A DNA stretch of 64,000 nucleotides. Source: Candidatus Krumholzibacteriota bacterium. Its GTDB lineage: Bacteria; Krumholzibacteriota; Krumholzibacteriia; Krumholzibacteriales; WJIX01. Positions within the stretch are counted from its first letter, which is position 1. Each line of letters opens with the position of its first letter. Made by a program: the position numbers and the translations under genes. This document shows positions 39,639-64,000 of this stretch, in pieces. The notes beneath the pieces were generated by a model. That model had not been told where the DNA came from. It saw nothing but the letters and a program-made list of their open reading frames with translations, and searched no databases. The stretch spans positions 963,308 to 1,027,307 of the forward strand of contig JAXHNR010000002.1 of the NCBI GenBank assembly GCA_034520215.1, in the 5' to 3' direction.

Positions 39639-41016
39639 CTATTTTTTTCCGAAAAATTCGCCGTGTATCGCCCTGATTGTCTTAGCTCTGTCCCTGCTGT
39701 CAATGAGGAAATATATCGCGACTCTGGATGTTCCGGAAGCTATGAGCTGTATGTTTATTTTTTTTTCTGAAACCGCTCTCAGAGCTCTTACCGCTATACC
39801 GCGTCTTTTGTCCATTCCTTCTCCGACAAGTGCGATCAGAGAACTGTCATCGTAACATTCTATCGTATCGATTGTGGGAAGTTTAAGGGATTTAATCTTT
39901 CCGCAGCACTTATTGAGATCGGATTTGGAGACGAGGATATTCATGGAAGTCATTGATGAAATCATGGTTTTTATATTTACTCCAAGTTCGGCTATTTGAT
40001 CTATTGCTTTACTTAGAATATTACTTTTTATTCCAATGCCGGGATTTCCCAGTCTTATTACTCCTATATTGTCGATACAGGCGACACTTTTTACTACAGT
40101 CCTCTTTATAATGGATTTACTGCTTATAACGGTAAGGGGGGATCTTTTGCCCTTCTGGTTGTTTATATCGAATACTTTAACGGGTATTTTATTGTCGAGC
40201 AGCGGCTCGAAGGTTAGAGGGTGAAATATCTTTGCTCCGAAATATGACAATTCAGCGGCTTCATTGTAGCTCAGTTCTTTTATGCCGACCGGGTGTTTGA
40301 CAATATCCGGATCCGCGCCTGAGAAATCCGGAGACATCTTTCCAGATATCAACCGAAGAAGCATTGACGCAGTAAGCTATAGCCGATGCTGAATAGTCAC
40401 TTCCGCCTCGGCCTAGAGTGGTGATCCTATACTCGGTTGAGATGCCGTAGAAACCGGGGATTATATAAGTTGTATTCTTAGAAAAAATATTCTTGATATT
40501 CTTCTTTGACTGCTCCAGATCAATAGTGGCATTCCCATATTCTCCGTCAGTAACGAGTCCAATATTTTCCGGAAGCAGTTCCCGGCAATCTATATCCATG
40601 TACTTAAGGATTGACCCTAAAAGCAAAGATGAGAGTCTTTCACCGTAGCTGAGGAGCATATCTTCAGCGCAATTCGGAATGTCTTCAAGGCAGTGAATCC
40701 CGAGAAGATACTTGCCGAGTTTTTCTATCCTATAATCCAGCTTTAAAAGGGTATCTTCCCTTATATCCTTATCCTTGATATATTCTTCTATAATTCGTCT
40801 GTGTGAATTATTAAGATCTTTAAGGATAACATTAATAGCTTTTTTGTCCTGCTTTACACTGGTTACACTTTTGATCAACCGGTTTGTGACACCGTAAAGA
40901 GCGGAGACAACTATTATAATAGGTTCCCTGTAATTCTTTATCGCGTTAATTACTTTTAAAATATCTTCTCTGGATTTAAGGTTTGAGCCACCGAATTTAA
41001 CGACAGTTCTCTTCAT
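39639..41016 (-). pseudogene. Aspartate kinase, frameshifted
   Basis: The N-terminal part (KFGGSNL.., LSYGERLSSLLL, GFYGIS..TLGRGGSDYSA, VDIWKDVSGFL) and the C-terminal part (ADPDIV.., ELSYFGAKIFHP and two ACT domains with the NILVSKSDL and SLIALVGEGMDKRRGIAVRAL segments) are in two frames that meet near 40,320. Removing one base there, in the stretch coding LRxADPDIV, restores a full kinase of about 458 residues. First step of the Lys/Thr/Met pathway; ACT domains imply feedback control. It overlaps the end of asd by 4 nt (ATGA), so the two form an operon. Sequencing error and true inactivation cannot be told apart here. Confidence 0.9.
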
Positions 41017-42014
41017 ATATTCTCTCCATATTTTTCGATAAACAGTTCGGCATTCTGAATAGATCCTCCAGCCGCGCCCTTTACGAGGTTGTTCGATAGC
41101 AGCACGAAACCCGTAAGACCGCCTTCTTCTTTAAGCCTTCCCGTAAAAACCTGCATGCCCGGGGGATTTCCTTCGAAACTCATTTTTGACTCCGGCGGAA
41201 TCCGGTCTCCCAGATATTTTACGGGTCTGTCAGGCATGCTGGGAAGGTCGAATTCATTAAAAGAAAAGTTGTTCCATGCCTTTACGATCTCTGCCGTATC
41301 CGGTTTGGTTTCGAACTCAACCCAGACAGTTTCGAGGTGTCCGAAAGGTACGTCCACGCGAACGCAGAAGGGCATAATATCAGCATCTATCCGAAGTATC
41401 TTTGTAAGCTCTTTCTTGATCTTTTCTTCTTCCCCTTCTATCCAGGGAAGGGCGTTGCGGCGCAGCCTGCCGGAATTGAGGGCGCCAGATCCGGCTCCGG
41501 AAAGCGCCTGGTAAGTTGAAACAAACACCTTCAGGATGCCGAATTTTCTAAGCGGCGCGAGCGCGACCGCAAGTCCGGTTGTCGAGCAATTGGCGTTGGT
41601 TACAACAAAACCCTTTTCCGGATATCCCTGTTCGGATATTAATTCGATCTCCCCTGAGTTTACTTCCGGTATAAGGATGGGTACATCTTCGAAATATCTC
41701 ATCGCGCCGGCATTTGAGAAAACGGCGATCCCCCTCTCTCTAAGTTCCGGTTCCACGGAAGCGGCTATTTCCGAAGGAAGGGCACTGAAGGCGATTTTTA
41801 TTCCGAGTTCTGATAATTTTGAAGATTCACAACGAGATATTATTTTATCTCTGTATTTTCACGCCACTACTCCTGATTCATACGGTATACCCGCTTTTGA
41901 ATCAGAGGCTGTAAGCAGGACGGGGGAAAACCATTTGTGTCTGGAAAGCAGCCATATGAATGTCTGTCCCACCAGCCCCGTGGATCCTAAAACGGCTGTT
42001 TTTATCTCTTTCAT
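41013..42014 (-). pseudogene. asd: Aspartate-semialdehyde dehydrogenase with an in-frame TGA
   Basis: One frame from ATG 42014 to the stop at 41013 gives a full-length protein (333 codons) broken only by TGA at 41861-41859 (codon 52), in GVVA(stop)KYRDKI. Family members have a conserved Trp near this place, so TGG to TGA is the likely change. NAD-binding GSTGLVGQTF, catalytic Cys in NANCSTTGLA and His in VPFGHLE are intact; the sequence is of the archaeal/fungal-like subgroup. Initiation after the stop (41756) would lose most of the NADP site. TGA is a normal stop in neighbouring genes (yebC, for example), so recoding is unlikely. Confidence 0.9.
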
Positions 42015-46359: not shown

Positions 46360-46977
46360 CTAAGTTCCGGGTGAGTCAAAATGGAGCCTCAAATATTTAT
46401 TCATAACTTTTATCACATCATCCTTGCATTCGCCGCAAACCGTTCCCGCTTTTGTCATTTCCTGAATTCTTTGATAACTCCGGGCTCCCTCCAGAACAGC
46501 ATCCTCTATCTCGTGTTCTGAAACGTTCATACATTCACATACGATTCTGGTTTCCTCTTTTTCTATTTTATCTTCCATGTTATTGCGGCGGTAGTAATCG
46601 TCTATCGCAGCCCTGAGTGCCTTGTCTCCGATAACAGAGCAGTGGATTTTGTTGTCTGGAAGCCCTCCCAGCTCTTCAACGATATCTTTCGGAGAAATTT
46701 TGTACGCGTCTTCCAGTGACATTCCGATTACAAGCTCCGATAATTTAGAAGTAGTGGCAATAGCGCTCGCGCAGCCGTAAGTTTTCCACTTGCAGTCTGT
46801 GATAATCTGTTTTTCGCTGTCAACCTTGATCACGAAAAGCATCTCATCGCCGCATTTAACGTTCCCGGTTTTTCCGTATCCGTCATGTTCATAGGAGTCG
46901 AGGTCTTCTAATACATTCCGAGGATTCATGAAGTGGTCTTTTACATTTTCTGTGTAAACCCAGTTTAAATCTTTCAT
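46360..46977 (-). CDS. NifU-like Fe-S scaffold with BFD-type [2Fe-2S] domain
   Basis: 205 residues. IscU-type scaffold domain (about 1-130) with its three Cys in KCGDEM, YGCASAIATTS and IHCSVIGD, followed by a BFD-like [2Fe-2S] domain (about 143-200) with CECMNVSEHEIEDA and GTVCGECKDDV. This equals the first two domains of NifU; the C-terminal Nfu domain is absent. It builds Fe-S clusters with sulfur from the cysteine desulfurase encoded 14 nt upstream. Confidence 0.92.
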   Translation of the reverse strand: MKDLNWVYTENVKDHFMNPRNVLEDLDSYEHDGYGKTGNVKCGDEMLFVIKVDSEKQIITDCKWKTYGCASAIATTSKLSELVIGMSLEDAYKISPKDIVEELGGLPDNKIHCSVIGDKALRAAIDDYYRRNNMEDKIEKEETRIVCECMNVSEHEIEDAVLEGARSYQRIQEMTKAGTVCGECKDDVIKVMNKYLRLHFDSPGT

Positions 46978-46991
46978 TTTAATTCTCCATT

Positions 46992-47620
46992 TTAATAGCG
47001 AGAAGAAATCTTTCTCAATTTTGGAATGATCTTGGTAAAAGCTTCTAAAGTGTATTCGATATCTTTTTTGGTTGTCCCTCTGCCCAGACTTATCCTGATC
47101 GATCCATTGGCAAATTCTTCAGGGACCCCGGTCGCGAGGATGACATGTGAAGCTCCGAGTGAACCGGAAGAACACGCCGACCCCGTTGAAACAGCAATCC
47201 CTTCAAGATCCAGGTACAGCATAATTGATTCACCTTCTACTCCTGCGAAAGAAACATTCAGAGTCCCGGGGATAGATTCAGTGGGATGGCCGATGAATTT
47301 AATGTCGGGGATGTTATCCTTGATCCCCTCTCTGAGTATCGATTTAAACCTAATCAGTCGTTTCGCTTCCTCATCCATTTCTGCTTTTCTCATCTCTATC
47401 GCTTTGGCAAATGCAATAATACCAAGGCTGTTTTCTGTTCCAGCTCTTCTTCCTTTTTCCTGGTGGCCCCCGTGTATCATCGGGCAGAAGGGGGTGTTCT
47501 TTTTGATGTACAAAGCTCCGATACCCTTGGGGCCGTATATCTTATGGGCGGAGTCATAAAATCCACTCCGAGTTCGCCTACGTCCACGGGATTTTCATCC
47601 GACACAATAAAGGATTTTAT
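46992..47620 (-). CDS. Cysteine desulfurase (IscS/NifS), 5' part lost at the junction
   Basis: The intact C-terminal 173 residues carry PMIHGGHQEKGRRAGTEN and the active-site Cys in STGSACSSGSLGASHV, ending before the scaffold gene. Upstream the PLP-lysine segment SAHKIYGPKGIGALYIKK is present, but in a different frame from PVDVGELGVDFMT; about 4 nt seem missing near 47,546-47,556. Further upstream recognisable sequence fades between 47,580 and about 47,640, where base composition jumps. The N-terminal 180 or so residues are not in this window. Supplies sulfur to the scaffold protein. Confidence 0.85.
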
Positions 47621-47660
47621 TTCTGGTCCGGCCGGCGTATTGTCTCCGGTGGGCTTGAAG
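47550..47660. other. Junction between two genomes (probable assembly chimera)
   Basis: Left of it: moderate GC, intact frames. Right of it: GC-rich DNA with frequent indels and alphaproteobacterium-like proteins. The break is inside a cysteine desulfurase gene, and small deletions begin just before it. No integrase, repeat or tRNA marks it as a natural insertion. Confidence 0.85.
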
Positions 47661-47708
47661 AGGCGTCGCCTGGCGCCGGGGTGTGTGCGCATTTGGGTTG
47701 ATACGGCG

Positions 47709-50700
47709 ATGACCAGGACGATCTTCGCGCTGGTGTTCGACCCAGGATGCGCGCGGCGGGACCACGCGGGGAAAACCAGAACGCGGCGGCCGCAACCGCG
47801 CCGGCCGAAGCCGCGGACCCGCTGTTCGGCGCTCGCGCTGGAAACCGCGCCTGCTGCTGGGACGCGGCGGCCGCGGCCACCGGGCGCCGAGGCGCTACGG
47901 CGACGACGGCGCCGAGCCGGGCCCGGCGGCGACCTGACCGGCGGCGACGCGGCACCGCCGACCGCAAGGCCGGCGGACGACCTGGCCGCGGCCAGGCCCT
48001 CGGCGGACGGCGGCGGCGGCGTATGCGCGGTCCGCCGTCGTGTTCGTCGACACCGGGGTGGAGGGGTGGCAGACGCTGGCCGACGGCGTCGACCCCGTCC
48101 GCGCAGCTCGTGCTGGTGGGGGCGAACGAGCGACGGCATGCGCGTCGATGGCCGACATCGCTGGCGCGCCGCAGCGACGTCCAGTCGGTGCACGTCCTGG
48201 GCCACGGCGGCGCCGGCGCGTTCTTCACGCTCGGCAGTGTGAGCTTGACGCCGATAGCCTTGAAACTCACCGGGCCGAACTTGGCAGCTTTATCGAAAGC
48301 GCCTTGGGCGCCGACGCCGCATGCTCTTGTACGGCTGTTACGTCGGCGCCGACGGCGAGGGTGCGGCCTTCCTGGACGCGCTCGCGACAGCGACCGGCGC
48401 GGACGTCGCCGCGCTCGAGCCGACCTGCACCTGGGCGGGCGCCGACAACTGGGCGGTGGATGGACGCTGGAAGCCTCGAGACCGGACAGATCGAAACCAG
48501 CCAGGCGGTCGCAGCCGTTGGCGGCGTCGTGCTTTCACTCGAGCGTCTGATGGCGTGCTCGACCAGAATTCCAACTCGTTGCCTGGCCAGACTGTAAACG
48601 ACCACGGCCTGATCGCTGGCGAACTTGGACCGATCGAACGGCGCGAAGGCGGGTCAGTCAGGAGCTCGGGACTTTCGGTGACTTCACCATCTGCGGTACC
48701 GGCTTTTGCGCCGGATCTCGATAACGGGCGCTGGAGACGAAGTTCCAGGCGGTCTTGGCGATTTTGGCGAAGCGGCACGCGGCCGCGTCAGCAATACGAC
48801 CGATGGGCGGATGGGTCTTGATCACGGTCGACTGTCGATGGACCGCACGTCAGCTCGGGGGAATTGACCGGTGTACAGGCCTCAAGGAGTTCATCGATGG
48901 CACTGCATGGTCGCCACTGGGGCTGACCGCCATCCGTGCGAGCGACGGCGCCACGCTGACCGGTAACAGCCGCCGACCCGGCGACTGGTAGCGCGGGTCA
49001 GCTAGTACCAGCTTCTCCGGTGACCCGTTTGGGGAGCTCCGTGAATTTGGGGACTTCGCAGGCAAACAAACAACCAGCGGCACGCTGACAGTCCATGCGG
49101 TCCCTGGAACCTCCCCCTACGACTTCTGCTTGTTCGAATCCACCGGCGACAACTTTACGAGCGGCAACACCGCCGACCGGGCTTCACCAGCTCGGCGACG
49201 GCCAGTGCTCAGCGAGGGAGTCGAACACGGCAAGATCATCCACGGTGGCGCCGGACGTCGACGCGGACGATCCGGCGACGGCGGACGCGGCGCTCACCTA
49301 CGCCGTCGACCTGACCGATGGCCAACGGCGCGCTGTTCGTCGACGGCAGCGGCGGCTTCGGCATCGATGGACGACGCTGGACGGCGAAATCAGGTCCAAC
49401 CCGGCTCGCCCCATACCTGAATCACGCAGGCCGACGCCGACGCCAGCGACAGCTACGCAATCCGCGGTGACGGCCGACGACGGCTCGGAGGCAACCGAGC
49501 GATTCACTTCGCCTTCACCGTCGAGGACGGCGATCGCGATCACGGTCACCGACGTCGACGAGGTCGCCATGACCGTCACGTCCGCCAGCGACGCGCCATC
49601 GATTCGGCGGCCGAAACCGCCGGCAACGGCAGCGCGGTGATCGACGTCAACGCCAACGTCGGCGGCGCGGACGGACGAGGGCACGCTGACCTACGCGTCG
49701 TCAGCCGGCGACACGGGCGGAGCGTTCGCCGATCGACAGCACGAACACGGCGCGATCACCGTGCGACGACGCGCGACGATCGACCACGACCACGCCAGTC
49801 CTACAGCCATCACGGTCCGCGCGACCGGACGGCACCGGCCAGCTCGACGACCAGACGATCACCGTCACCGTCACCGACGTGAACGAGGCGCCGGCGATCG
49901 CCGGCACGGCGGCAACTCCGACGATCGACGACACCGCGACGACCACGCCCTTCTCGCCGCTCAGCTTCAGCGATCCGGAGGGCGACGGCGGCACCGATCG
50001 CGATCACCTACACCGGCGCCAACGGCACGCTGAGCGGCACCGGGCTGACCGGCACACGCCAGCGGCAACTACACGGTGGCGGGCAGCACAGCGGCGGAGT
50101 TGACCAGCCGGCTGCAGGCGCTGGTGTTCACGCCGACGACCAACCAGGTCGCGCCGAGCCAGCACGGTCCAGACCACCTTCACCCTGACCCCGAACGACG
50201 GCAGCCTCGGCGGCACGGCGAACAGCGACCACGGTCGTCACCGCGACCTCGGTCAACGACGCGCCGACCGACATCACGTTGTCGTCCAATAGCGTGAACC
50301 AGTCCGGCGGGACGGACGCGGTCGTGGGCAGCGCTCGGCGCCGTGGACCCGGATACCGGCGACACCGCCACCTTCACGCTGGTGACCGGCGCTGGCGACA
50401 CGAACAACGGGTCGTTCAACATCTCCGGCGCCGACCTGCGCGCCAACGACGCCGCGGCGCTCGCCGCCGGGACCAGTTCGTGCGCGTGCGCGTGACCGAC
50501 GGCCAGTCGGCCACCTACGAGGAGGCGTTTACCGTCACCGTCGTCGACGACGTGGCGCCGGCCGCGCCCTCGACGCCGGACATGCGTCACGTCGGATGAC
50601 CGCGGCGATTCCCGATACCGACGACATCACCAACGTCACCACGCCTACCTTTACCGGCAGCGGCGAGCGGCGCCATCGTCACCCTGTTCGACGATGCCGA

Positions 50701-53700
50701 CAGCGACGGGGTGCTCGACAGCGGCGAAGAGCGTGGGTTCGGTCACCGTTACCGGCGGCACCTGGTCGATCACCTCGAGCACGCTCGCCGAAGGCACGCG
50801 CAACATCCGGGCAAGTCGAAGACGCTGCCAACAACGTCTCCGGCGCCTCCTCGATCTGTCCGTGACGATCGACACCACCGCGCCCAGCGGCCAGACGATC
50901 AGCGCCGACGACGGCCTGATCAACGCGGCCGAGGCCAGCAGCACCAGCTTCACCTTCGCCGGCGCGGAGGTCGGGGCCACCTACGACCTCACCGTCACCA
51001 GCTCCGGCGGCGGCGGCTCTGCCACCGCAACCGGCACAATCACCAGCGCCACCGAGCAGATCACCGGCATCGACGTCTCCGGCCTGCCCGACGGCACGCT
51101 CACCTATTCGTCTGTCCTGACCGACCCGGCCGGCAACGCTGCCGGCGCCGTCACCGACACCGCCACCCTCGACACCACCGCGCCCAGCGGCCAGACGATC
51201 AGCGCCGACGACGGCCTGATCAACGCGGCCGAGGCCAGCAGCACCAGCTTCACCTTCGCCGGCGCGGAGGTCGGGGCCACCTACGACCTCACCGTCACCA
51301 GCTCCGGCGGCGGCGGCTCGGTCACCGCGACCGGCACGGTCTCCAGCGCCACCCAGCAGATCACCGGCATCGACGTCTCCGGCCTGCGCCGACGGCACGC
51401 TCACCTATTCGTCGTCCTGACCGATCCGGCCGGCAACGCCGCCGGCGCCGTCACCGACACCGCCACCCTCGACACCGGCTGCGCCCACCGTCGGCGCCAA
51501 CACGGGCGTCGCGGTCGACGAGGGCGCCAGCGTGACGGTGACGAGCACCGACCTCGCGTTCATCGACGCGATCGACACCGATACCAACCTTCTCTACACC
51601 CTGAACGGCACCACCAACGGTACCGTGGTGCTGAACGGCGGCGACCTGCTCGAACGGCCAGACGTTCACGCAGGCCGACATCAACGCCGGTAACGTGGCG
51701 TTCCGTCACGACGACACCGAGACGGCCTCGGGCAGCTTCGCCTTCACCATCACCGACACGGCCGGCAACGTGCTGACCGGGCAGAGCGCGTCTGTCGCGG
51801 TGACGCTGGTCAACGACAACCCGCCGGTCGCCAACGACGACACCGACACGACCGACGAGGACACGGCGATCAGCCGCAACGCCGCGGCCGGCGTGATCGA
51901 CCTCAACGACACCGACGCCGACACGAACGCGAGCCTGAACGTCGTCGGCGTGCACCCGACCGGGGCCGTGACCGGCGGCACGGGCGTCGGCAGTTCGGTG
52001 ACCGGCACCAACGGCGGCACGTTCACGATCAACGCCGAACGGATCCTACGACCTTCGACCCGAACGGCGACTTCGACGACCTCTTGACCGGCAGCCGGGC
52101 GACGGCGAGTCACCTACACCCTGCTCGGACGGCAGCACCACCGACACCGCGACGCTCACCGTGACGGTACTGGCGGTCAACGACCCGCCCGTGATCGGCG
52201 GCGTTCGCGGGCGAGGACAACGAGGTCGTCGCCGGCGGCGGGTTGCTGCCCCTGAGCGGGTTCGACGACGCCACCGTCACCGACCCGGAGCAGCGGCGAC
52301 TACCGACGGCGGCACGCTGCGGATCGCGAACACCGGCGGCGCCAATGCCCAGCGCGGTCTCGGTCGGCGTCGACGCGGCGAACGTGCAGGCCCTCGATCG
52401 GAACGGCTCCTTGCCGGGATCGGCGCCGGCGCGACGATCGAAGTGGACGACGGCGGGGTCAGCGGCTTCGTCGCCATCGGCACGGTCGACGGCACCGAGG
52501 CCGGCCAGGCGGGCAACGATCTGGTCATCACCTTCAACAACCAAGCGACCAACGCGCGCGTCCAGATCCTCCTGCGCGCACTAAGCGCCGACGTGTCGAG
52601 CGGCTCTCACCACCCGCGAACTACCGAGCTGACCCTGAACGACGGCGACGCGAACACGGCGCCGGACGACGCGGTCACCACGGCCACCTTCTCGATCACC
52701 GGCACGCCCAACCCGCCGGTGATCTCCAACCTGGACGGCGACAGCGTGACCGCCGCCACCGGCGCGGTCGTGGCGATCGACCAGGGCGCCGCCGCCAGCG
52801 TCGGCGATCCGGATTCGGCCAATTTCGACGGCGGCAACCTGACGGTCGCGCGCACCTCCGGCCTGGCCGGCGACTTCTCGGTGAGCGGCTCGGCCGGGAC
52901 CGGGGTTAGCGCCGGCACGACCACCGGCGACGCCGACGGCACCATCGCCGCCGCGGACAACATCTACGTCGACGGGACCGACATCGGCGACGTCACCACC
53001 GACGGCCAGGGCAGCAACAACCTGGTGATCACCTTCGACGCCGACGCCACCGCGGCCCGTGTCGCGACAGTCATCCAGGCGCTGCGGTACGCCTCGACGG
53101 CCGCTGGCAGCCACACCTTCGACCTGACGGTGACCGACGCCGGCAGCAATGCCGCCACCTCCACCGCCGCCGGCTTGACCGTCGCTGTCGACGCCGTCCC
53201 GGTGAACACCGTGCCGGGGGCGCAGACCGCCACCGACGGGCAGGCGCTCGCCCTCCCCGGCGATCTGGGCTCGCGGACGCCGACAGCGCCGGCGTGACCA
53301 CCACGGTGAGCGTGCCGGGCGGGGCCGGAACCTTCCAGGCGACCGCCAGCGGCGTGGCAAGCGTGACCGGCACGGGCACGAACAGCGTGCAGATCGCCGG
53401 TACGCTCACGGATGTGAACGCCACGCTGGCCAGCCTGACCTACACGCCCGCGGTGAACGCCGCCGGCGCGCAGACGATCACGGTCACCACGAGCGACGGC
53501 TCGGCCTCGACCGGCGGCCCGAACACCGACAGCGACACCATCGCGGTCACCGTCGTCGACCGGCCGACGCTGGCCAACCTCGACGGCGACACGGTCGGCT
53601 ACAGCCAGCAGGGCGGCCCGGTGGCGCTCGACAGGCGGCACCGCGGTGGCGCTGAGCGACAGCGACAGCGCCAACTTCAACGGCGGCAGCCTGGCCGTCA

Positions 53701-55917
53701 CCTACCAGGCCGGCCAGCAGGCGGAAGACCGGCTGGTGATCGACACCAGCGGCACGGTGACCCTGTCCGCCGGCCAGACCGCGGGCAGCACCGTCTCGGT
53801 CGGCGGCACGGCCGTGGGGACGATCCAGGCGGGCGCGACCGGCGGTGACCAGCGAGGGCCTGACGATCAGCCTCGACGCCGGCGCGACACCCACGACCGT
53901 CGCCACGCTGATCGCGGCGATCGGCTACGACAACGCCGCCGGCGACACGCCCACGGGCGGCGACCGGACGATCCGCGTCACGGTCGACGACGGCACCACG
54001 GCGGGCGCCGGCGATCCCGCCGACGTCACCGTGCAGGTGGCGGCCGTCAACGACGCCGACCGGAACCGGTGTGCCGGCCACGATCACCGCGACCGAGGAC
54101 GTCGCCGCCAACATCGACCTGACCGGGCTCGCCCTGGCCGACGTCGACGCCGGGGCCAACCCGATCGTCCTCACCCTCGCGCGTCGACGCGGGCACGCTC
54201 TCGGCGAGCCGGCGGCGGCGGGGTGACGGTGGGCGGTACCGGCACCGGCACGCTCACCCTGACCGGCAGCGCGGCCAACCTGAACGCCTTCCTGGGCGAC
54301 GCCACGGCGGTGCAGTACACCTCCGCGGCCAACGCCAACGGCACCGGCGCGGCGACGCTCACCTTCACGCTCAACGACCAGGGCAACACCGGCTCCGGCG
54401 GCGGCACCAACGTCGCGCTGGGCAGCGCCCAGATCGACATCGCGGCCGTCAACGACGCGCCCACGGTGGCGAACGCCCCGGCCGACCAGACGACGGCCGC
54501 GGACAGGTCCTTCAGCTACCGGAACTGCCGGCCGGCACCTTCGCCGACGTCGACAGCGGCGACTGCCTCGACCTATACGGCGACTTCGGCCGGCGGCGGC
54601 GCCCTGCCAAGCTGGCTGACGTTCGACGCGGCGACCCGAACCTTCTCCGGCACGCCGGGCGAGGGCGAGGTCGGTACCGATCAGCCTGCAGGTGACGGCC
54701 GCCGACCCGTCGAACACCACGGCGACGACCACCTTCGACCTGACCGTGACCGAACAGCGGCGCCGACGGTGGCGAGCGCGCCGGTCGACCAGACCGCCAC
54801 GGCGGGCGATGCGTTCAGCTACCAGCTGCCCGCGAACACCTTCGCCGATCCGGACGCCGGAGCGACCCTGCTGCGCTGTCGGCCACGCTCCGCCAGCGGC
54901 GCCTCCCTGCCCGCGTGGCTCAGCTTCGACGCCGCCACGCGGACCTTCTCCGGCACGCCCGGCGACGGCGACACCGGCACGCTCAGCCTGCGGGTGACGG
55001 CCCAGGACGGCGCGGGCGCCACGGCGACCGCCAGCTTCGAGCTGAGCGTCGAGGCGGCCGAAGGCGACGACGATCCGGTGCCGCCGCCCAGCGACGGGGA
55101 CGACGACGACGATCCGGTGACCCCCACCGTCACCACCCTGGACCGCGGGCCGGTCCGGGTCACGGTGATCGAGATCGGCGGGGAGAACGTCCTGGTCGCC
55201 AACAGCGGCGTCGTCAGCGGCCGGGCGTTCGAGGCGATCCTGGGCACCTTCGACCGGGGCAACTCGCCACTCGCCCAGACGTTCCGCGCGGCCGCGGCCA
55301 ACCTGTCCGGCGAGCCCAGCGAGACGCTGCAGACAGCCCTCGGCGATTCGACGACCCGGGGCATCCTGGCCGACATCGAGGCGATCGGCGGCGAGACGCT
55401 GATCTTCCAGAACGGCGAGTGGCGTCCGCTCGACCTGGAGACCTGCTGCAGAGCGCGGCCGTGAGCGGGGATGCCCCGGCCGGGACGTCCGCGCTGGCCG
55501 GCACCGCGCCGGCGGACGCCGGGCCGACCGCCCTCGCCGCGGCGCCGGCAGCCGCACCCGCCGAGCGCGAGGCCACCCTGGCCGGGCTGCGCCAGGCGAC
55601 CCGCGACCTCTGGATCGAGCAGGCGATCGCCGCGCTCGCCGAGGCCGACGGCCTGGCCGACGGGCCTGGCGGACGGTGGCGACCTCTGGGCGGGCGGCGC
55701 GCCGGCGCCGGACGGCGGTCTGCCCGCCGGGCACCGGGCGGGCGACTTCGCCCAGCAGCTGCGCCAGCGCGCCGACGCGTTCGACCGCGACGCCCGCCTG
55801 CTGGCCGCCAGCCGTGGCGGTGGTCGAGCGCGCATAAGCCGGCACACCGCGGCCGGGCCGGACCGGGGGGTTGCCGGCGCGGCCGCGGTTCAGGCGGGCG
55901 CGGGCGCGCGGACGTAG
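47709..55917 (+). CDS. Giant DUF4347/cadherin-like repeat adhesin, many frameshifts
   Basis: Read across frames, one protein of about 2,700 residues. Near 47,810-47,890 is the N-terminal family motif reconstructed as LFGALALEPRLLLDAAAAAT. A DUF4347 domain follows (48,035-48,550: FVDTGVEGWQTLADGVD, VHVLGHGGAGAF, YGCYVGADGEGAAFLDALA). After a less clear stretch come cadherin/VCBS-like and bacterial Ig-like repeats (49,200-54,450, with NDAP-type linkers), two 100-residue units in tandem (50,881-51,480), two dystroglycan-type cadherin-like domains (54,450-55,060: SWLTFDAATRTFSGTPG), an acidic linker, and a unique C-terminal domain ending at 55,917. No RTX nonapeptides. Dozens of one-base indels break the frame, and they look like sequencing errors. 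The first ATG in a plausible place is 47,709; the true start is unsure. Secreted or surface adhesin, by analogy. Confidence 0.8.
50881..51480 (+). repeat. Two tandem 300-bp units in the adhesin gene
   Basis: Units start at 50,881 and 51,181, exactly 300 bp (100 residues) apart, and are almost identical over their whole length, beginning with the codons for APSGQTISADDGLINAAEAS and ending LTDPAGNAAGAVTDTATLD. The second copy has an extra base near 51,388 and a missing base about 20 nt later compared with the first. Each unit is one bacterial Ig-like domain. Recent duplication or gene conversion. Confidence 0.95.
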
Positions 55918-56039
55918 CCCCATGCGGCTGCGCGCCGCCCCGCCGCCCGCCCGCGGCCCCCGCGCCGCGGGGGCGGCGTCCGCCCCGAACCCGGCCGAGA
56001 CCTACCCGTTCGGCCACCGGCCGGCGGGGCAGTGCCTCA

Positions 56040-56084
56040 GGGCAAGATGCTGAAACGTGGACTCAGCGTTTCAGCATCTTGCCC
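56040..56084. terminator. Perfect 18-bp hairpin after the adhesin gene
   Basis: GGGCAAGATGCTGAAACG (56,040-56,057) pairs perfectly with 56,067-56,084 around a 9-nt loop. There is no T-tract, only CTCTCTT. Either a transcription end for the adhesin mRNA or a copy of a dispersed palindrome. Confidence 0.55.
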
Positions 56085-56100
56085 TCTCTTCAAGGAGTTC

Positions 56101-56152
56101 AGAGCAAAATTCGACGATGGAAGGCCGGTTCGGCTTTCATCGATTGTGCTCT
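56101..56152. repeat. Second long imperfect palindrome
   Basis: AGAGCA..ATTCGACGATGGAA at the left pairs with TTCATCGAT..TGTGCTCT at the right, with a GCCGG/CCGG top, about 22 pairs over 52 bp. It lies 16 bp after the first hairpin. Such palindromes are frequent between genes of alphaproteobacteria. Confidence 0.6.
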
Positions 56153-56274
56153 AGCGGCGGCCGCGCGGATCTGGACAGGGCCCCACCGAGAACACAGCGG
56201 GCACGGAGATCGACCGCGCGATCCAGGCGGGCGATCGGGCCATGCGCATGCGGTGAAACTGCCCCGCGCCCAAG

Positions 56275-56440
56275 GCGCGCCTGGACCTGGCTCGCACGCG
56301 AAGCGCGCCTGGACCGGGCTCGCGCGCGAAGCGCGCCTGGACCGGGCTCGCGCGCGAAGCGCGCCTGGACCGGGCTCGCGCGCGAAGCGCGCCTGGACTT
56401 GGCACATACGCAGCGCGTCTTGAACCGGCACGCGCGCGCG
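56275..56440 (+). repeat. 28-bp tandem repeat array
   Basis: Unit GCGCGCCTGGACCGGGCTCG followed by CGCGCGAA. Three units are perfect (56,303, 56,331, 56,359), with one diverged unit on the left (56,275) and two on the right (56,387, 56,413). The period is not a multiple of 3 and there are no spacers, so it is neither a protein repeat nor a CRISPR. Confidence 0.9.
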
Positions 56441-56501
56441 GCGCGCCGTTCGCTCTCTCGCGCTCTCTCTGTGCTCTCTGTGCCCTCCCTGCTCCACTCG
56501 C

Positions 56502-56571
56502 GCTTCGGGTCCTGCCCCGCTTCGGGTGCACTCCCCGCTTCGGGTCCAGCCCGGCCTCGGGTCCAGTCCGG
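56502..56571 (+). repeat. 17-18-bp tandem repeat array
   Basis: Four units starting GCTTCGGGT or GCCTCGGGT, each followed by CC/GC and a C-rich end. It follows a CT-rich stretch at 56,450-56,495. Confidence 0.75.
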
Positions 56572-56771
56572 CCCTGGCGTCCGCTTCGCTTATCACGCGC
56601 GCGCCGGCGGGCGCCGCACACGCGCGGCCGGTCAGGCCGCGGCGCCGTGTTGCAGCAATTCATTCGCGAAAACTGCAACTTGCGGTCAAAGCTTGATTTG
56701 CTTCTGGGGCGAGAAAGTGGCACAAGCAGGTGTTACGCTTGACACGCCGGAATCGGGGGCCTAGGAAAGCT

Positions 56772-58377
56772 GTGAAACGAGTGGGGATTGAGGCGGCGGG
56801 GCGCCGGCGGCGGTTGCGCGGCGGCGTGGCCGCGGTGCTGGCGGGGCTGATGCTGGGCGCGTGCGCGATCCAGCCGGCGCCGCTGACGCAGGCCGAGACG
56901 GAGGCGCGCGATCCAGGGCGACCTGCAGGCGATGTTCTCCGAGCAGGAGCCGATCGACGGGCCGGTCACGCTGTACGAGGCGATGGCCCGGGCGATCATG
57001 TACAACCTCGACCACCGGGTCGAGGTGATGAGCCAGGCCGTGAGCCAGCACCAGCTCGACGTCGCGCGCTACGACCTGCTGCCCAGCCTGGTCGCCGGAA
57101 TCGGGCTACCGCGGCCGCTCCAACGAGAACGCCTCGTCGTCCAGAACGTCGAGACCGGCCGGCAGTCGCTCGCCCCCTCGACCTCGACGGAGCGGGACGT
57201 CTTCACCGCCGACCTGAACCTGGCGTGGAACGTGCTCGACTTCGGCGTGAACTACTTCACCGCGCAGCAGCAGGCCGACCGGGCGATGATCGCCTACGAG
57301 CGCCGGCGCAAGGTGATCCACGGCATCATCCAGGACGTCCGCTGCCGCCTACTGGCGGGCGGTCGCCGCCCAGCGCCTGCAGGCGCGGGTCGGGCCGCTA
57401 TTGGAGCGGGTGGAAGGCGCGCGCCAGGAACTCCCAGCGGATCGAGCAGCTGCGCCTGCAGTCGCCGCTGGACGCGCTCAGCTACCAGCGCACCGTGCTG
57501 GACGCCAAGCGCCAGCTGCAGACCCTGCGCCAGGACCTGGCGCTGGCGAAGGTGGAGACTGGCGACGCTGATGAACCTGCCGCCGGACCGCGACTTCGAG
57601 CTGGCGATGCCGGCGAGCGAGATCGCCCTGGGCGAATTGGCGCTGAGCCCGCAGGAACTGGAGCAGATCGCGCTCGCCTACCGGCCGGAGCTGCGCGAGG
57701 AGGACTCCAGGCCCGGGTGTCGGCGACCGAGACGCGCAAGGCGCTGGTCCGCTTCCTGCCCGGCCTGGAGGTGTTCACCGGCCTGCACTACGACTCCGAC
57801 GAGTTCCTGGTGAACCAGAACTGGGCGGACTACGGCGTGCGGGTCAGCTGGAACCTGATCAACCTGCTGTCCGCGCCGGCCCGCCTGGAGCAGGCGGAGA
57901 GCCAGGAGAAGGTCGCGATCGCCCGGCGCCAGGCGCTGTCCATGGCGGTGCTGAGCCAGCTGTACGTCGCCTACACCGCCTACCGCCAGGCGGACGACCT
58001 GTACCAGACCAACCAGGCGGTCGCGACGGTCGAGGGCGACATCCTGGAGCAGCTGCGCCGCAGCGAGCGCGCGCAGTCGAACGGCCGGCTGGCGGTGATC
58101 CGCGGCGAACTCAACGCCCTGGTCGCCGACCTGCGCCGCGACCTCGCCTTCGCCCGGGCGCAGAACGCGCTCGGGGCAGATCTACGTCACGGTCGGCGCC
58201 GACCCGCTGCCGGAGACGATCGAGGAGGCCTCCGTCGGCACCCTGGCCGAGGCGATCCAGACCACCCTGAAGGGCTGGCAGACGGGCGATCTGTTCATGC
58301 GCTCCACCATGCTGCAGGTGGGCGCGGAGCAGGGCCTGCCGGAGACGGCTGACGACAAGGTCCTGGGCATCTTCTAG
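56772..58377 (+). CDS. TolC-family outer-membrane lipoprotein, frameshifted
   Basis: Starts GTG after AGGAAAG. Signal peptide with lipobox LGAC (MLGACAIQP). Two TolC-type halves with long helices and porin strands: TLYEAMARAIMYNLDHRVEVM, VFTADLNLAWNVLDFGVNYFTAQQQADRAM, QRTVLDAKRQLQTLRQDLALAKVE, LPPDRDFEL, then FLPGLEVFTGLHYDSDEFLVNQNWADYGVRVSWNLINLL and SQLYVAYTAYRQADDLY. Stop TAG at 58,375. At least five one-base indels break the frame. Restored length is about 530. It forms the outer-membrane channel of the locus. Confidence 0.88.
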
Positions 58378-59262
58378 CGGGCGTCTTCTAGCTGGCGACG
58401 CCGGACACGCCGCGGATCTGCCGCCCGAACCGCCGGCGACACGGGTCCCCTCTCCTCCGCTGGGCGAAGAGGGCTTAAGGTGAGGAGGTCGCCGCGGACC
58501 TTCGACGGCCGTGCACGCCACCTCTCCCCGGTCCCCACCCCAATGGCAGGAGGGGACCCGCCGCCACGCGGTGCCACGCCCGGCACCGCCAGGGCGGCGG
58601 ACGACAGACCGAACGGCGACACGGGTCCCCTCTCCTCCGCTGGGAGGAGAGGGCTCAGGTGAGGGAGGTGGCCGCAGACCTCGACAGGCGTGCACGCCAC
58701 CTCGCCCTGTCCCGCGCCCCCGATGGCGGAGAGGGAACCCGCCGCCACGCGGTGCCACACCCGGCGCCGCCGGGGCGGCGGACGACGCGGGTCCCCCTCT
58801 CCTCCGCTGGGAGGAGAAGGCCAGGGGTGAGGAGGTCCGGCCGCGGACCTCGACGGCGTGCACGCCACCTCTCCCTGGCCCTCTCCCCCGATGGCGAGAG
58901 GGGACCCGCCGCCACGCGGTGCCGAACCCGGCGCACGGCGGGGCGGTGGACGACGACCGGGCGACGCGGTCCCCCTCTCCTCCACTGGGAGGAGAGGGTT
59001 AGGGAGAGGAGGTGGGCCGCGGGACCTCGACGGCGTGCACGCCACCTCTCCCGGTCCCGCGCCCCCAGATGGCGGGAGGGGAACCCGCCGCGACGCGGTG
59101 CCACACCCGGCGCCGCCGGGGCGGCGGGCGACGACCGGCTACGCGGGTCCCCTCTTCCTCCGCTGGGAGGAGAGGGGGACCCGCCGCCGCGCGGTGCCTA
59201 CACCGGCGCCGCCGGGGCGGCGGGCGGTCGGCGGCAAGGCGCGATGGAGTCGGAGACGGGCG
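58378..59262. other. Intergenic region made almost wholly of repeats
   Basis: 885 bp between the TolC-like gene and the first adaptor gene. It holds the ~175-bp repeat array listed next and no gene. Long open frames through it on both strands follow from GC bias. Confidence 0.7.
58440..59240. repeat. Array of four to five ~175-bp palindromic repeats
   Basis: The landmark GTGCACGCCACCTC recurs at 58,511, 58,690, 58,858 and 59,035 (spacings 179, 168, 177). Each unit also holds a CCCTCTCCTCC..GGAGGAGAGGG hairpin and ACCCGCCGCCACGCGGTGCC. A diverged copy lies at 63,850-63,960. It is a dispersed intergenic repeat family that has been amplified in tandem here. Confidence 0.85.
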
Positions 59263-60190
59263 ATGGGCCTGCAAACGATCAACCGCCCGGCCGGGCGCGG
59301 CGCGCGCATCGCGGCAGGGCTCGCCCTGGCGGCCCGCGCTGCTGTGCGCCGGGACCGGCCCCGCGGCGGCGCAGGACGCAGCCGACGGCGCGGCCCCCGA
59401 CGGCGCGGCCCCCGACGGCGCGGGCCGCGCGGCAGCCGCGCGCTGGACGCTGAGCCGCAGCTGAAGTCCCTGCTCGCCCCCGAGGGCGGCAAGGTCGGGC
59501 CGGACGGCGGGCTCGCCCCGCACGAGGCGCGCGCGCTGATCGAGCCCAGGGCGGAGGCGGTGCTGTCGAGCGAGATCGGCGGCCGGATCCTGGAGCTCCC
59601 GGTCGACTCCGGCGAGCGCTTCGCCAAGGGCGACCTGCTGGTCCGGCTTGGAGCTGCAGCTTCCACCAGGCCGAGCTGGCCGCGGCGCGGTGGCGGAGTT
59701 GACCCGCGCGCGGCGCGTGCTCGCCGACGCCCGGCAGCTGGCGCAGCTGAACTCGATCGGCCGAGCTCGACGTCGCCCTGGCCGAGGCGGACGTCGCCAA
59801 GGCAAACGCGCAGGTGCGCACCCGCTCGCTCTACGTCGAGCGCTGCCGGATCCGCGCGCCCTACGACGGCCGGGCGGCCGGTCGGCCGGTGGACATCGAG
59901 ACGGTCGGCAAGGAGCCAGGAGCTGATGAGCGTGATCGCCAGCGGCGGCCTGCGGGTGCGCCTGATCGTGCCGTCCAGCTGGCTGGCCCTGGCTGGCGCC
60001 GGGGACGCGCTTCGAGCTCGAGATCGACGAGCCCGGCGCAACCCGTCAGGCCGAAGTCGCCACGATCGGCGCGCGGATCGACCCGGTCAGCCAGACCGTG
60101 CCGCTGCGCGGCCAGCTGGTCGGCGAAACGCCGGCCGCCCTGCTGCCGGGGATGAGCGGCACCGCCCGGTTCGACCCGCCCAACGGCTGA
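59263..60190 (+). CDS. Periplasmic adaptor (membrane fusion) protein, frameshifted
   Basis: Signal peptide, an Ala/Asp/Gly repeat stretch (DGAAPDGAAPDGAG), then an RND/HlyD-type adaptor: lipoyl half IGGRILELPVDSGERFAKGDLLVRL, helical hairpin with ELTRARRVLADARQLAQLNSIG and DVALAEADVAKANAQV, second lipoyl half CRIRAPYDGR, and barrel IDPVSQTVPLRGQLVGE, PGMSGTARF. ATG 59,263 is preferred over 59,244, since a signal peptide follows. Stop TGA at 60,188. Several indels. It links an inner-membrane component to the TolC-like channel. Confidence 0.82.
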
Positions 60191-60245
60191 CCCAATCCCG
60201 ACGCTGGCGGCAGCCGCCGCCGCGGCCGGCCGGTCGCGAGACCCG

Positions 60246-61598
60246 ATGCCGCAACCCGATCCCAAGCTCCGCGGCTTTTCCCACCTTCCTGCAGCTGGAG
60301 CGCGCCGCCCGGCGCGCCGAGAGCGTCGACGCGCTCACCTACGTCGCGGTCAACGAGACCCGCCGGCGGCCGAGCTATCGCCAGGCCGTGCTGGCGGCCG
60401 GCGGTGAGCGGCACCAGCCCGCGCGTCCGGGCGATCTCCGGCGTGTCCGTCCTGGAGCGCGACGCCCCCTTCCTGCGCTGGCACGAGACGGCGCTGGCCG
60501 CGCTCGCCCGCGGGGCGGAGGCGCGCACCGTCCGGCGGCTGACCGCGGACGACCTGCCGGAGGGCCTGCGGCCGGGCTGGACGGAATGGCAGATCGGCCA
60601 CGGGCTCGACGTCCCGCTGATCGCGCCCGACGGCGAGCTGCTGGGCGCGCCGTGGCTGAGCCGGCCGGCGGAGTGGAGCGAGAGCGACGCCGTGCTCGCC
60701 GAGCGGCTGGCGGACTGCTACGCCCGACGCCTGGCGCGCGCTCGCCTGGGCGCAAGGCGGTGCCGGCGCAAGCGCCGCTGGCCGCGGATCGCGGCCGGCG
60801 CGGCGGCGGTCGGCCTGGTCGCGCGCGCTCGCGCATCCCGGTGCCGCAGAGCGCGCTGGCCCCGGCGGAGGTGGTCGCCGCCAACCCGCGGGTGGTCGCC
60901 GCGCCGATGGACGGGGTGATCGCCGACGTCCAGGTCGAGCCGAACCAGCCGGTCGAGGCCGGGCAGCGGCTGTTCGCCTGCGGCGCCACCGACCTGGAGA
61001 GCCACGCCGGCGGTCGCGCGCCGGGCGCTGGCGATCGCCGAGGCGGAGCTCCGGCGGGCGAGCCGGGGCGCGTTCGCCGACCGCGAGGAGACGGCCAAGC
61101 TGCCAGGTGCTTGGAGACCAAGCGCGACCTGCGCGCCGGCCGAGCTGGCGCAGGCGGTAGGAGCGGCTGTCGCGCGTGGTCGTCACGGCCGAGCAGGCCG
61201 GGGTGGCGATCTCCACCGACCCGAACGACTGGATCGGCCGCCCGGCGCGCCGGCGAACGGGCTGATGCAGGTGGCCGACCTGGGCGACACCCGCCTGCGG
61301 ATCGACCTGCCGGTGGCCGAGGCGGTGCAGCTGGACCCCGGCGCCCGGGTCGCGCTGTTCCTGGACGTGGCACCGCTGGAGCGGGTGCCCGCGACCCTGA
61401 CCCGGGCGAGCTACGAGGCGACGACGACCCCGGACGACGTGCTCGCCTACCGGGTCTACGCCGACTTCGCCGCCGACGCGGCGCCCCGCCGGCCGGGCCT
61501 CAAGGGCACGGCGAAGCTGTTCGGGCCGGAGGTGCCGCTGGCGCTCTACCTGTTCCGCCGGCCGGTCAGCGCCGTGCGGCAGCGTGGTCGGCCTGTGA
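60246..61598 (+). CDS. GAF-like / HlyD hybrid adaptor protein, frameshifted
   Basis: The N-terminal 170 residues resemble a GAF domain (FLQLERAARRAESVDALTYVAVNETRR, GLDVPLIAPDGELLGA, AERLADCYA). A membrane helix follows (near 60,790-60,835) and then an HlyD-type periplasmic part with VVAANPRVVAAPMDGVIADV, VEPNQPVEAGQRLF, ISTDPNDWIGRPV and LRIDLPVAEAVQLDPGARV. Stop TGA at 61,596 overlaps the GTG start of the next gene. An adaptor with a cytoplasmic sensory-like domain is unusual; ligand unknown. Several indels. Confidence 0.78.
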
Positions 61599-63772
61599 GC
61601 GCGCCCGCGCTGACCCTGCCCGGCGCCGGCGCGGCGGCCGGCGAGCTGCCCGAACGGCTGCCGCCGCTGCGCGCCGACCTGGAGCTGCTGGAGGCGCCGC
61701 GGGCCGCCGACGGCAGCCCCTGCTGGACGATCCACGATCCCGTCCTGAACAGCTTCTACCGGATCGGCGACAGCGCCTTCCGGCTGCTGTCCAACTGGGC
61801 GCTGGGCGCGCCGGAGGCGGTGCTGGCGCGCGCCAACCGGGCTGCGCAGAGCGCGCCGGTCACCGCGCGCCAGCTGGAGCAGCTGCTGCGCTTCCTGGCC
61901 GCCAACCAGCTGATCGAGGCGGCGGGCCCGCAGGGCCTCGCCGACCACCTGGCGCGCCTCGACCGGCGGCGGACCCGGCCGTGGCAGTGGCTGCTGCACC
62001 GCTACCTGTTCTTCCGGGTGCCGCTGGTCCGCCCCGACGCGGTCCTGGGCGCCACGCTGCACCTGGTGCGGCTGATGACGCGCGGCTTCTGGCGGCCGGA
62101 TCTGCCTGGTGCTGGGGCGCGCTGGGCGTGCTGCTGGCGCTGCGGCAGTGGGAGACCTTCACCCACACCTTCATGAGCTTCCTGACCTGGCAGGGCGCGT
62201 CGGCGTTCGCCGCCACCCTGCGGCGACCAAGGCGCTGCACGAGCTGGCGCACGGCTACATGGCCAAGGCGTACGGCTGCCGGGTGCGCACCATGGGGATC
62301 GCGTTCCTGGTGTTCTATCCGGTGCTCTACACCGACACCACGGACGCCTGGCGGCTGGTCTCCCGCCGGTAGCGGCTGCTGATCGGCGCGGCGGGCACGC
62401 TGGCGGAGGTCCTGCTGGTGCTCCTGGTGACCTTCGCCTGGTCGTTCCTGCCCGACGGGCCGATCCGGTCCGCCGCCTTCCTGCTGGCGACCGTGACCTG
62501 GACGATGACCCTGCTGGTCAACCTCAACCCGTTCATGCTTCGACGGCTATTACCTGCTGTCCGACTGGCTGGGCGTGAGAACCTGCAGACCCGGGGCTTC
62601 GCGCTCGGCCGTGGCGGCTGCGCGAGCCTGTTGTTCGGGCTGGGCGAGCCGCCGCCGGATCGGATGTGGCACGAATGCGCGCTGCCCTGGTGTACGCGTA
62701 CAGCACCTGGATCTGGCGCTTTCTGCTGTTCCTGGGCATCGCGCTTCTGGTCTATCACCGTTCTTCAAGGTGCTGGGCCTGTTCCTGATGATCGTCGAAC
62801 TCGCCTGGTTCATCGGCCGCCCGATCGCCGAGGAACTCGCCAGTGGTGGCGACGGAGACACGCCATGCGCCTCAACCGCAACAGCCTCGCGACGCTGGCC
62901 GTGCTGGCCGGCCTGATCGGCCTGCTGGCCTGGCCCTGGAAGTCGCCCGGGTCTCGGTGCCGGCCGTGCTCGAGGCCGGCCAGCACAGCGCGCTCTACCC
63001 GCCGGTGGCCGCGCGCATCGTCGCGGTCAACGCCGCCGACGGCCGGCGCGTGGCGGACGGCGAGGTGCTGTATAGGTCGACTCCCCCGACCTGACCCACG
63101 CGCTGCGCCAGACCGGGCGCCGGATCGCCATGGCGGAGGGCTTGCTGCGCCGCCAGGCGGCGAGCGCGGAGGCCCTGGACCGGCTGAGCGTGCTGGAAGA
63201 GGAGCTCGCCGCCGACCGCACCCGGCTGGCCGGCCTGCAGGCCCAGCAGGCGCGCCTGACCGTGCGCGCGCCCAAGGCGGGCCGGCTGAGAGACGTGCCG
63301 CCGGAGCTGCGGGCCGGGCAGTGGATCGCCGTGACCCAGCCGTCGGCCGGGTCGTCGGCGACCAGCCGGCGCGCCTGCGCGGCTACGTCCGCGGCGCGGA
63401 CCTCAGCCGCTTCGCGGTGGGCGCGCACGGCCGCTTCGGCCGCAGTACTCGGCGCGCCCGCCGCTCGACGTCACGGTCACCGCGCGCGAGACGGTCAACG
63501 CCCGCCGCCTGGACCTGCCCTACCTCGCCGCGGCGTACGGCGGCGGATAGACGCAGACCCGCCAGGCCGGCGACAGCGCCGCCCAGATCGCGGGCTTCGG
63601 CCTGGTCCCGCGCACCCCGGTCTACCGCGTCGAGCTCAGCCCGGCCACGCCGCTGCCCGCGCCCGCCCAAGTCGTGCCCGGCACGGTGATGGTCGCGGGC
63701 GAAGCGCGCAGCCTGCTCGCCCGCGCCTGGCGCAGCGCCGCCGCCGTGGTGATCCGGGAAAGCGGGTTCTAG
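61595..63772 (+). CDS. M50 site-2-protease-like membrane protein with adaptor-like tail, frameshifted
   Basis: About 720 residues when restored. N-terminal PqqD/winged-helix-like domain ([36 protein letters not shown]). Several membrane helices follow. The zinc site HELAH lies in [18 protein letters not shown] (about 62,235-62,285), and the distal Asp motif [14 protein letters not shown] is at 62,525-62,570. After the last helices, near 62,900 on, is an HlyD-like periplasmic part with [24 protein letters not shown], a coiled-coil hairpin ([20 protein letters not shown]) and [15 protein letters not shown]. Lesions include TAG for a likely CAG at 62,370 and a second in-frame TAG near 63,548. 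Overlaps the previous gene, so one operon. Could process or translocate the adhesin. Confidence 0.8.
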
Positions 63773-64000
63773 GCCTCGCTCACGCGCGGGGCGGGGTCGC
63801 CGGCGACGAGCTTGCTCTCGTGAGCCTGGCCCCTACGCCAACAAACCTGATTTCCCTCCTCCAGTGGGAGGAGGGCGAGGGGAGGAGGTTGCCCGCGACC
63901 TCGACAGTGGCGGCGACCTCCTCTCCCTAACCCTCCTCCCATGGAGGAGAGGGGACCAGTTGGTGATGGGGGTGTGAGCCAGCTGTAGGGCGGGTTCGCG
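63773..64000. repeat. Intergenic end with a dispersed palindromic repeat
   Basis: Holds CCCTCCTCC..GGAGGAGGG hairpins and CGACCTCG segments (about 63,850-63,955) related to the units at 58,440-59,240. No gene seen before the window ends. Confidence 0.65.

Follow-up and report, generated by a model that had tools for sequence, protein, structure and literature searches.

Does the last part of this contig belong to the organism whose name it carries? The window, a stretch of 64,000 nucleotides (C2:963308-1027307 in assembly G000), stops at the same base as contig C2 itself (1,027,307 bases), one of the two contigs, C1 and C2, of an assembly of 2,600,818 bases that is 97.33% complete with 0.42% contamination. 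An earlier note on this DNA had placed a sharp change of genome in the middle of a cysteine desulfurase gene (iscS) and regarded the two sides as different organisms joined in an assembly chimera. We found that the window consists of three parts: the host chromosome, which is the end of C2 proper (1-47,590; GC about 44%) and carries ordinary bacterial genes with rare frameshifts; a junction strip (47,591-47,700) that fits neither side; and a foreign tail (47,701-64,000; GC 68-79%) with many frameshifts and tetranucleotides unlike those of the host. The foreign part, 16.4 kb in length, closes contig C2, and this position at the contig end was absent from the earlier note. Almost certainly, the host contig stops in iscS and is followed by DNA of another, high-GC alphaproteobacterium-like organism, attached through a chimeric read or a misjoin.

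The gene at the join was recognized as iscS from a minus-strand ORF at 46,992-47,513, which encodes the C-terminal half of a cysteine desulfurase. The C-terminal part of the gene extends over 46,992-47,590 (minus strand), corresponding to residues ~206-405 of the 405-codon ORF in genome G002, and the remainder is not in the window. The PF00266 profile (IscS/class-V aminotransferase domain) matched this C-terminal part above the cut-off and was cut at the join. Directly downstream lies an intact gene for a NifU-like scaffold protein (46,360-46,977, minus strand), 87% identical to its counterpart in same-genus genomes, where the order of iscS and the NifU-like gene is the same. DNA identity to a same-genus relative reached about 47,590, where the iscS homology ended, so the break does fall within the cysteine desulfurase gene. 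The small deletions reported at 47,546-47,620 were supported in part: compared with three relatives, iscS shows one net deletion of 4 bp (near 47,549-47,552, minus strand) that breaks its frame just ahead of the join, and the part of that interval from 47,590 to 47,620 lies beyond the end of homology. Past 47,590, alignment to the iscS genes of the relatives was no better than that of shuffled sequence. The idea that this sequence is noisy host iscS was rejected on this ground, and for the same reason the strip 47,591-47,700 was assigned to neither genome. Six known Nanopore and PacBio adapter sequences were also tried at the join; none scored above shuffles, and an adapter remnant was rejected.

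The missing front of iscS was found on the other contig. A PF00266 profile scan of the genome placed model positions 1-86 at C1:1573232-1573480 and positions 196-370 in the window. Both fragments are cut and they are complementary, the N-terminal one lying near the 3' end of C1 (1,573,511). The N-terminal part of the gene, ~95 residues at C1:1573217-1573511, occupies the extreme 3' end of C1, and its translation begins MGNKKIYLDHNATTPLHPEVKK. Compared with IscS of the same relatives, identity was 75% for the C1 fragment and 80% for the window fragment; the gap between the two is about 96 residues (~290 bp), and the gene is intact in three relatives. As complementary parts of one gene, the fragments showed, at the level of sequence, that the host chromosome runs from C2 to C1 and not into the tail, its true continuation after the iscS break being C1, about 290 bp away. 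This evidence is decisive because it is independent of composition.

The C1 fragment also bears on the possibility that the join is real biology, with horizontal transfer or a mobile element having brought foreign DNA into iscS in all host cells or in a part of them. In favour of such an event, the tail reads as a coherent operon and not as noise. However, the iscS front at the end of C1 carries no such insert, the operon has no copy elsewhere in the genome, composition and error rate shift at the same point, and the ~290 bp of missing iscS would need explaining too. Besides, the tail runs to the contig end, a Pfam scan of ten tail frames revealed no integrase or transposase families, and no mobile-element end was visible at the join in the sequence read, as had been noted before. 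Since the iscS part on C1 is without the insert, a true insertion is very unlikely. It is just as improbable that a real host subpopulation with a recent alphaproteobacterial insertion in iscS, 16 kb or longer, was caught at the contig end.

The two sides of the join differed sharply in composition. The GC profile of the window stayed at about 40-48% until about 47.5 kb and was 68-79% beyond 48 kb. The best two-segment fit placed the GC change-point at 47,624 (2-lnL interval 47,620-47,630), with a change from 43.6% to 69.7% and a lnL gain of 281 over a model with no change. Comparison of tetranucleotide profiles, which had been suggested as a check, was GC-normalised; the 8-kb pieces that served as host reference came from the left part of the window as well as from three further contig ends. 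Host pieces correlated with the remaining host at 0.72-0.94, whereas the two halves of the tail correlated with the host at -0.01 and 0.23. With alphaproteobacterial (Azospirillum-type)/Pseudomonas loci, the same two halves showed correlations of 0.68 and 0.60.

Error density changed as well. Frameshift-tolerant alignment of the tail to four intact Azospirillum proteins gave 31 frameshifts in 5,649 bp (5.5/kb). In contrast, the host part had 3 candidates in 47.5 kb, about 0.06/kb by a count that is non-exhaustive. Thus, the sharp shifts in base composition and error density described in the earlier note were both borne out. An internal yardstick of error was provided by a 300-bp repeat present in two copies inside the giant gene of the tail (50,869-51,476, plus strand), which differ by 9 substitutions and 2 isolated single-base indels; the two indels agree with a raised indel rate in the tail. 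Genes in the left 47.5 kb of the window were mostly full-length, the three clear splits being those of aspartokinase, aspartate-semialdehyde dehydrogenase and a CysC-like protein. The aspartokinase gene (39,639-41,016) is in two overlapping frames, split near 40.3 kb (AA_kinase 1-182; 181-234 plus ACT), probably by a sequencing error that persisted in the host sequence. In the aspartate-semialdehyde dehydrogenase ORF (41,013-41,756), the NAD-binding domain is missing roughly its first 80 model positions, and a frameshift near 41.75 kb is probable. The CysC-like (APS kinase) gene (2,076-2,648) is fused behind a DUF2061 domain and ends early near 2.08 kb, possibly shortened by a frameshift.

The tail itself forms one contiguous operon on the plus strand. 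It starts with a giant DUF4347/putative-Ig repeat protein (48,044-55,460), broken by frameshifts, followed by a TolC-like outer membrane efflux protein (OEP; 56,802-58,281, 8 frameshifts), an HlyD-family adaptor (59,500-60,181, 5 frameshifts), a further HlyD-family protein that has a long N-terminal region (60,211-61,582, 7 frameshifts) and an M50 peptidase-HlyD fusion (61,655-63,769, 11 frameshifts), all of them foreign to the host. The interval from the giant gene to the efflux gene contains a short array of 28-bp repeats (GCGCGCCTGGACCGGGCTCGCGCGCGAA) at 56,275-56,447. A foreign GC-rich intergenic repeat array of the CCCTCTCCTCC...GGAGGAGAGGG type lies at 58,433-59,176 (plus strand); such repeats, ~170-180 bp in length with inverted CCCTCTCCTCC/GGAGGAGAGGG arms, were seen there and again at 63,840-63,960. 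The operon (48,044-63,769), whose giant protein is of a DUF4347/cadherin or Ig-like kind, is conserved and may represent a secretion system that has been little described. No ABC transporter was detected among the genes scanned beside the operon in three relatives.

The same gene order was found in Azospirillum, Niveispirillum, Thalassospira and Pseudomonas cuatrocienegasensis among the matches listed. In its order and domains, the tail agreed with the cluster of a DUF4347/Ig-repeat giant, OEP, two HlyD proteins and an M50-HlyD fusion in Azospirillum, Niveispirillum and Thalassospira. It differed from these in that its copy is broken, at about 5.5 frameshifts/kb, and in that the tail organism has no close representative among the loci found. 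The four Azospirillum proteins that were compared with the tail showed 45-51% aligned identity to it, which suggests that the source is a distinct lineage. The change in taxonomic character proposed earlier was therefore upheld by synteny with Azospirillum and related genera and by best hits there among the matches listed, and these hits make a high-GC alphaproteobacterium the most likely source. A plasmid origin was considered and rejected, since two Azospirillum plasmids covered just 5% and 3% of the tail at about 73% identity.

It could also be argued that the tail is an unusual high-GC island of the host's own, with the junction falling in iscS by chance. DUF4347 is rare in the host phylum, and weak matches to it in 2 further genomes from that group would be in line with such an island. 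But DUF4347 was absent from three same-genus genomes and from a fourth genome of the same family, the operon matches Proteobacteria by both order and sequence, and the tetranucleotide correlation with the host, just -0.01 to 0.23, is hard to reconcile with a native segment. This explanation appears the least probable of all. A search for copies of the tail elsewhere in its own genome returned none except for short repeat copies within the tail.

Taken together, GC, oligonucleotide and coding character shift jointly at the join, the interrupted host gene is continued on another contig, and the phylogenetic affinity of the tail is foreign. The iscS front at the 3' end of C1, the lack of genomic copies of the tail and its Azospirillum-like operon all agree with the earlier view that the two parts are different organisms in an assembly chimera. 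With regard to its origin, we infer a chimeric read as the source of the error in preference to an assembler misjoin. In this view, the host contig would have ended in a chimeric long read, formed by ligation of two molecules or by their being read together, or in an equivalent misjoin. If low coverage alone backed the foreign half, this half would have been appended and barely polished, and the ~290 bp that separate C1 from C2 could result from the same thin host coverage. Placed at the contig end, a chimeric read would account for the join, the unassigned strip, the absence of adapters, the poorly polished tail and the gap to C1.

It has been reported that 1.67-2.17% of reads in two published Nanopore metagenome data sets were chimeric, without known adapters and with gaps between segments (PMC10025935). 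Our case resembles the interspecies chimeric Nanopore reads described there for Meta-NanoSim in that one molecule record would hold two genomes, with an adapter-free join and possibly a short unassigned gap; it differs in that chimerism was deduced here from the assembled contig instead of from aligned reads. Chimeric reads were also named as a cause of assembly (contig) errors in the myloasm assembler preprint (PMC12424758). The chimeric contigs described in that preprint are similar in that the error is attributable to chimeric reads and can be recognized from shifts in GC and coverage, except that the error here is at a contig end and was revealed by a partner contig with the other half of the gene. 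Frame-changing indels in the tail amounted to about 0.5%, which is low for an uncorrected long read of an older type, so a newer read or partial correction is possible.

The moderate error rate of the tail also bears on an alternative source, in which low-coverage DNA of the other organism, present as a contig of its own or as a path of several reads, was attached through the assembly graph, and no single chimeric read was involved. The few differences between the two 300-bp copies, like the overall error rate, would allow for more than one read. On the other hand, host and tail were not found to share any repeat by which the graph could have been misled, and the unassigned strip at 47,591-47,700 fits a gap inside a chimeric read. 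Such a misjoin is plausible, although we consider it the less probable source; it is also a chimera and hence a sub-case of the same verdict.

The foreign tail is a known kind of assembly or read artefact and is of practical, not scientific, interest. Gene calls after about 47,590, including the DUF4347 giant protein and the M50-HlyD cluster, would be miscredited to the host phylum, and the whole stretch past this position should be excluded from host annotation. The contamination estimate of the assembly fails to flag the tail. With the artefact recognized, the host does possess iscS, and the assembly amounts to a circular chromosome that is closed except at two short joins.

The second join is at the opposite end of C2. 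Here the start of C2 (96 bases) overlaps C1:1245-1339 in reverse orientation, with 99% identity, and the overlap falls in a split glutamate dehydrogenase gene, with the N-terminal part on C2 and the rest on C1. Since the ends of C1 and C2 meet at both joins, the contigs form a nearly closed circle. Unplaced terminal sequence was present at both of them, namely the C2 tail and the first 1,244 bp of C1. For this C1 head (C1:1-1244), neither its own genome nor 12 relatives gave a match, and the frames tried had no hits in Pfam. Non-matching sequence at both joins would fit contig ends extended by poorly supported reads. In addition, a sequence of ~315 bp occurs near both contig starts (G000:C1:8079-8389 and G000:C2:3604-3918) in inverted orientation, with 91.5% identity between the copies.
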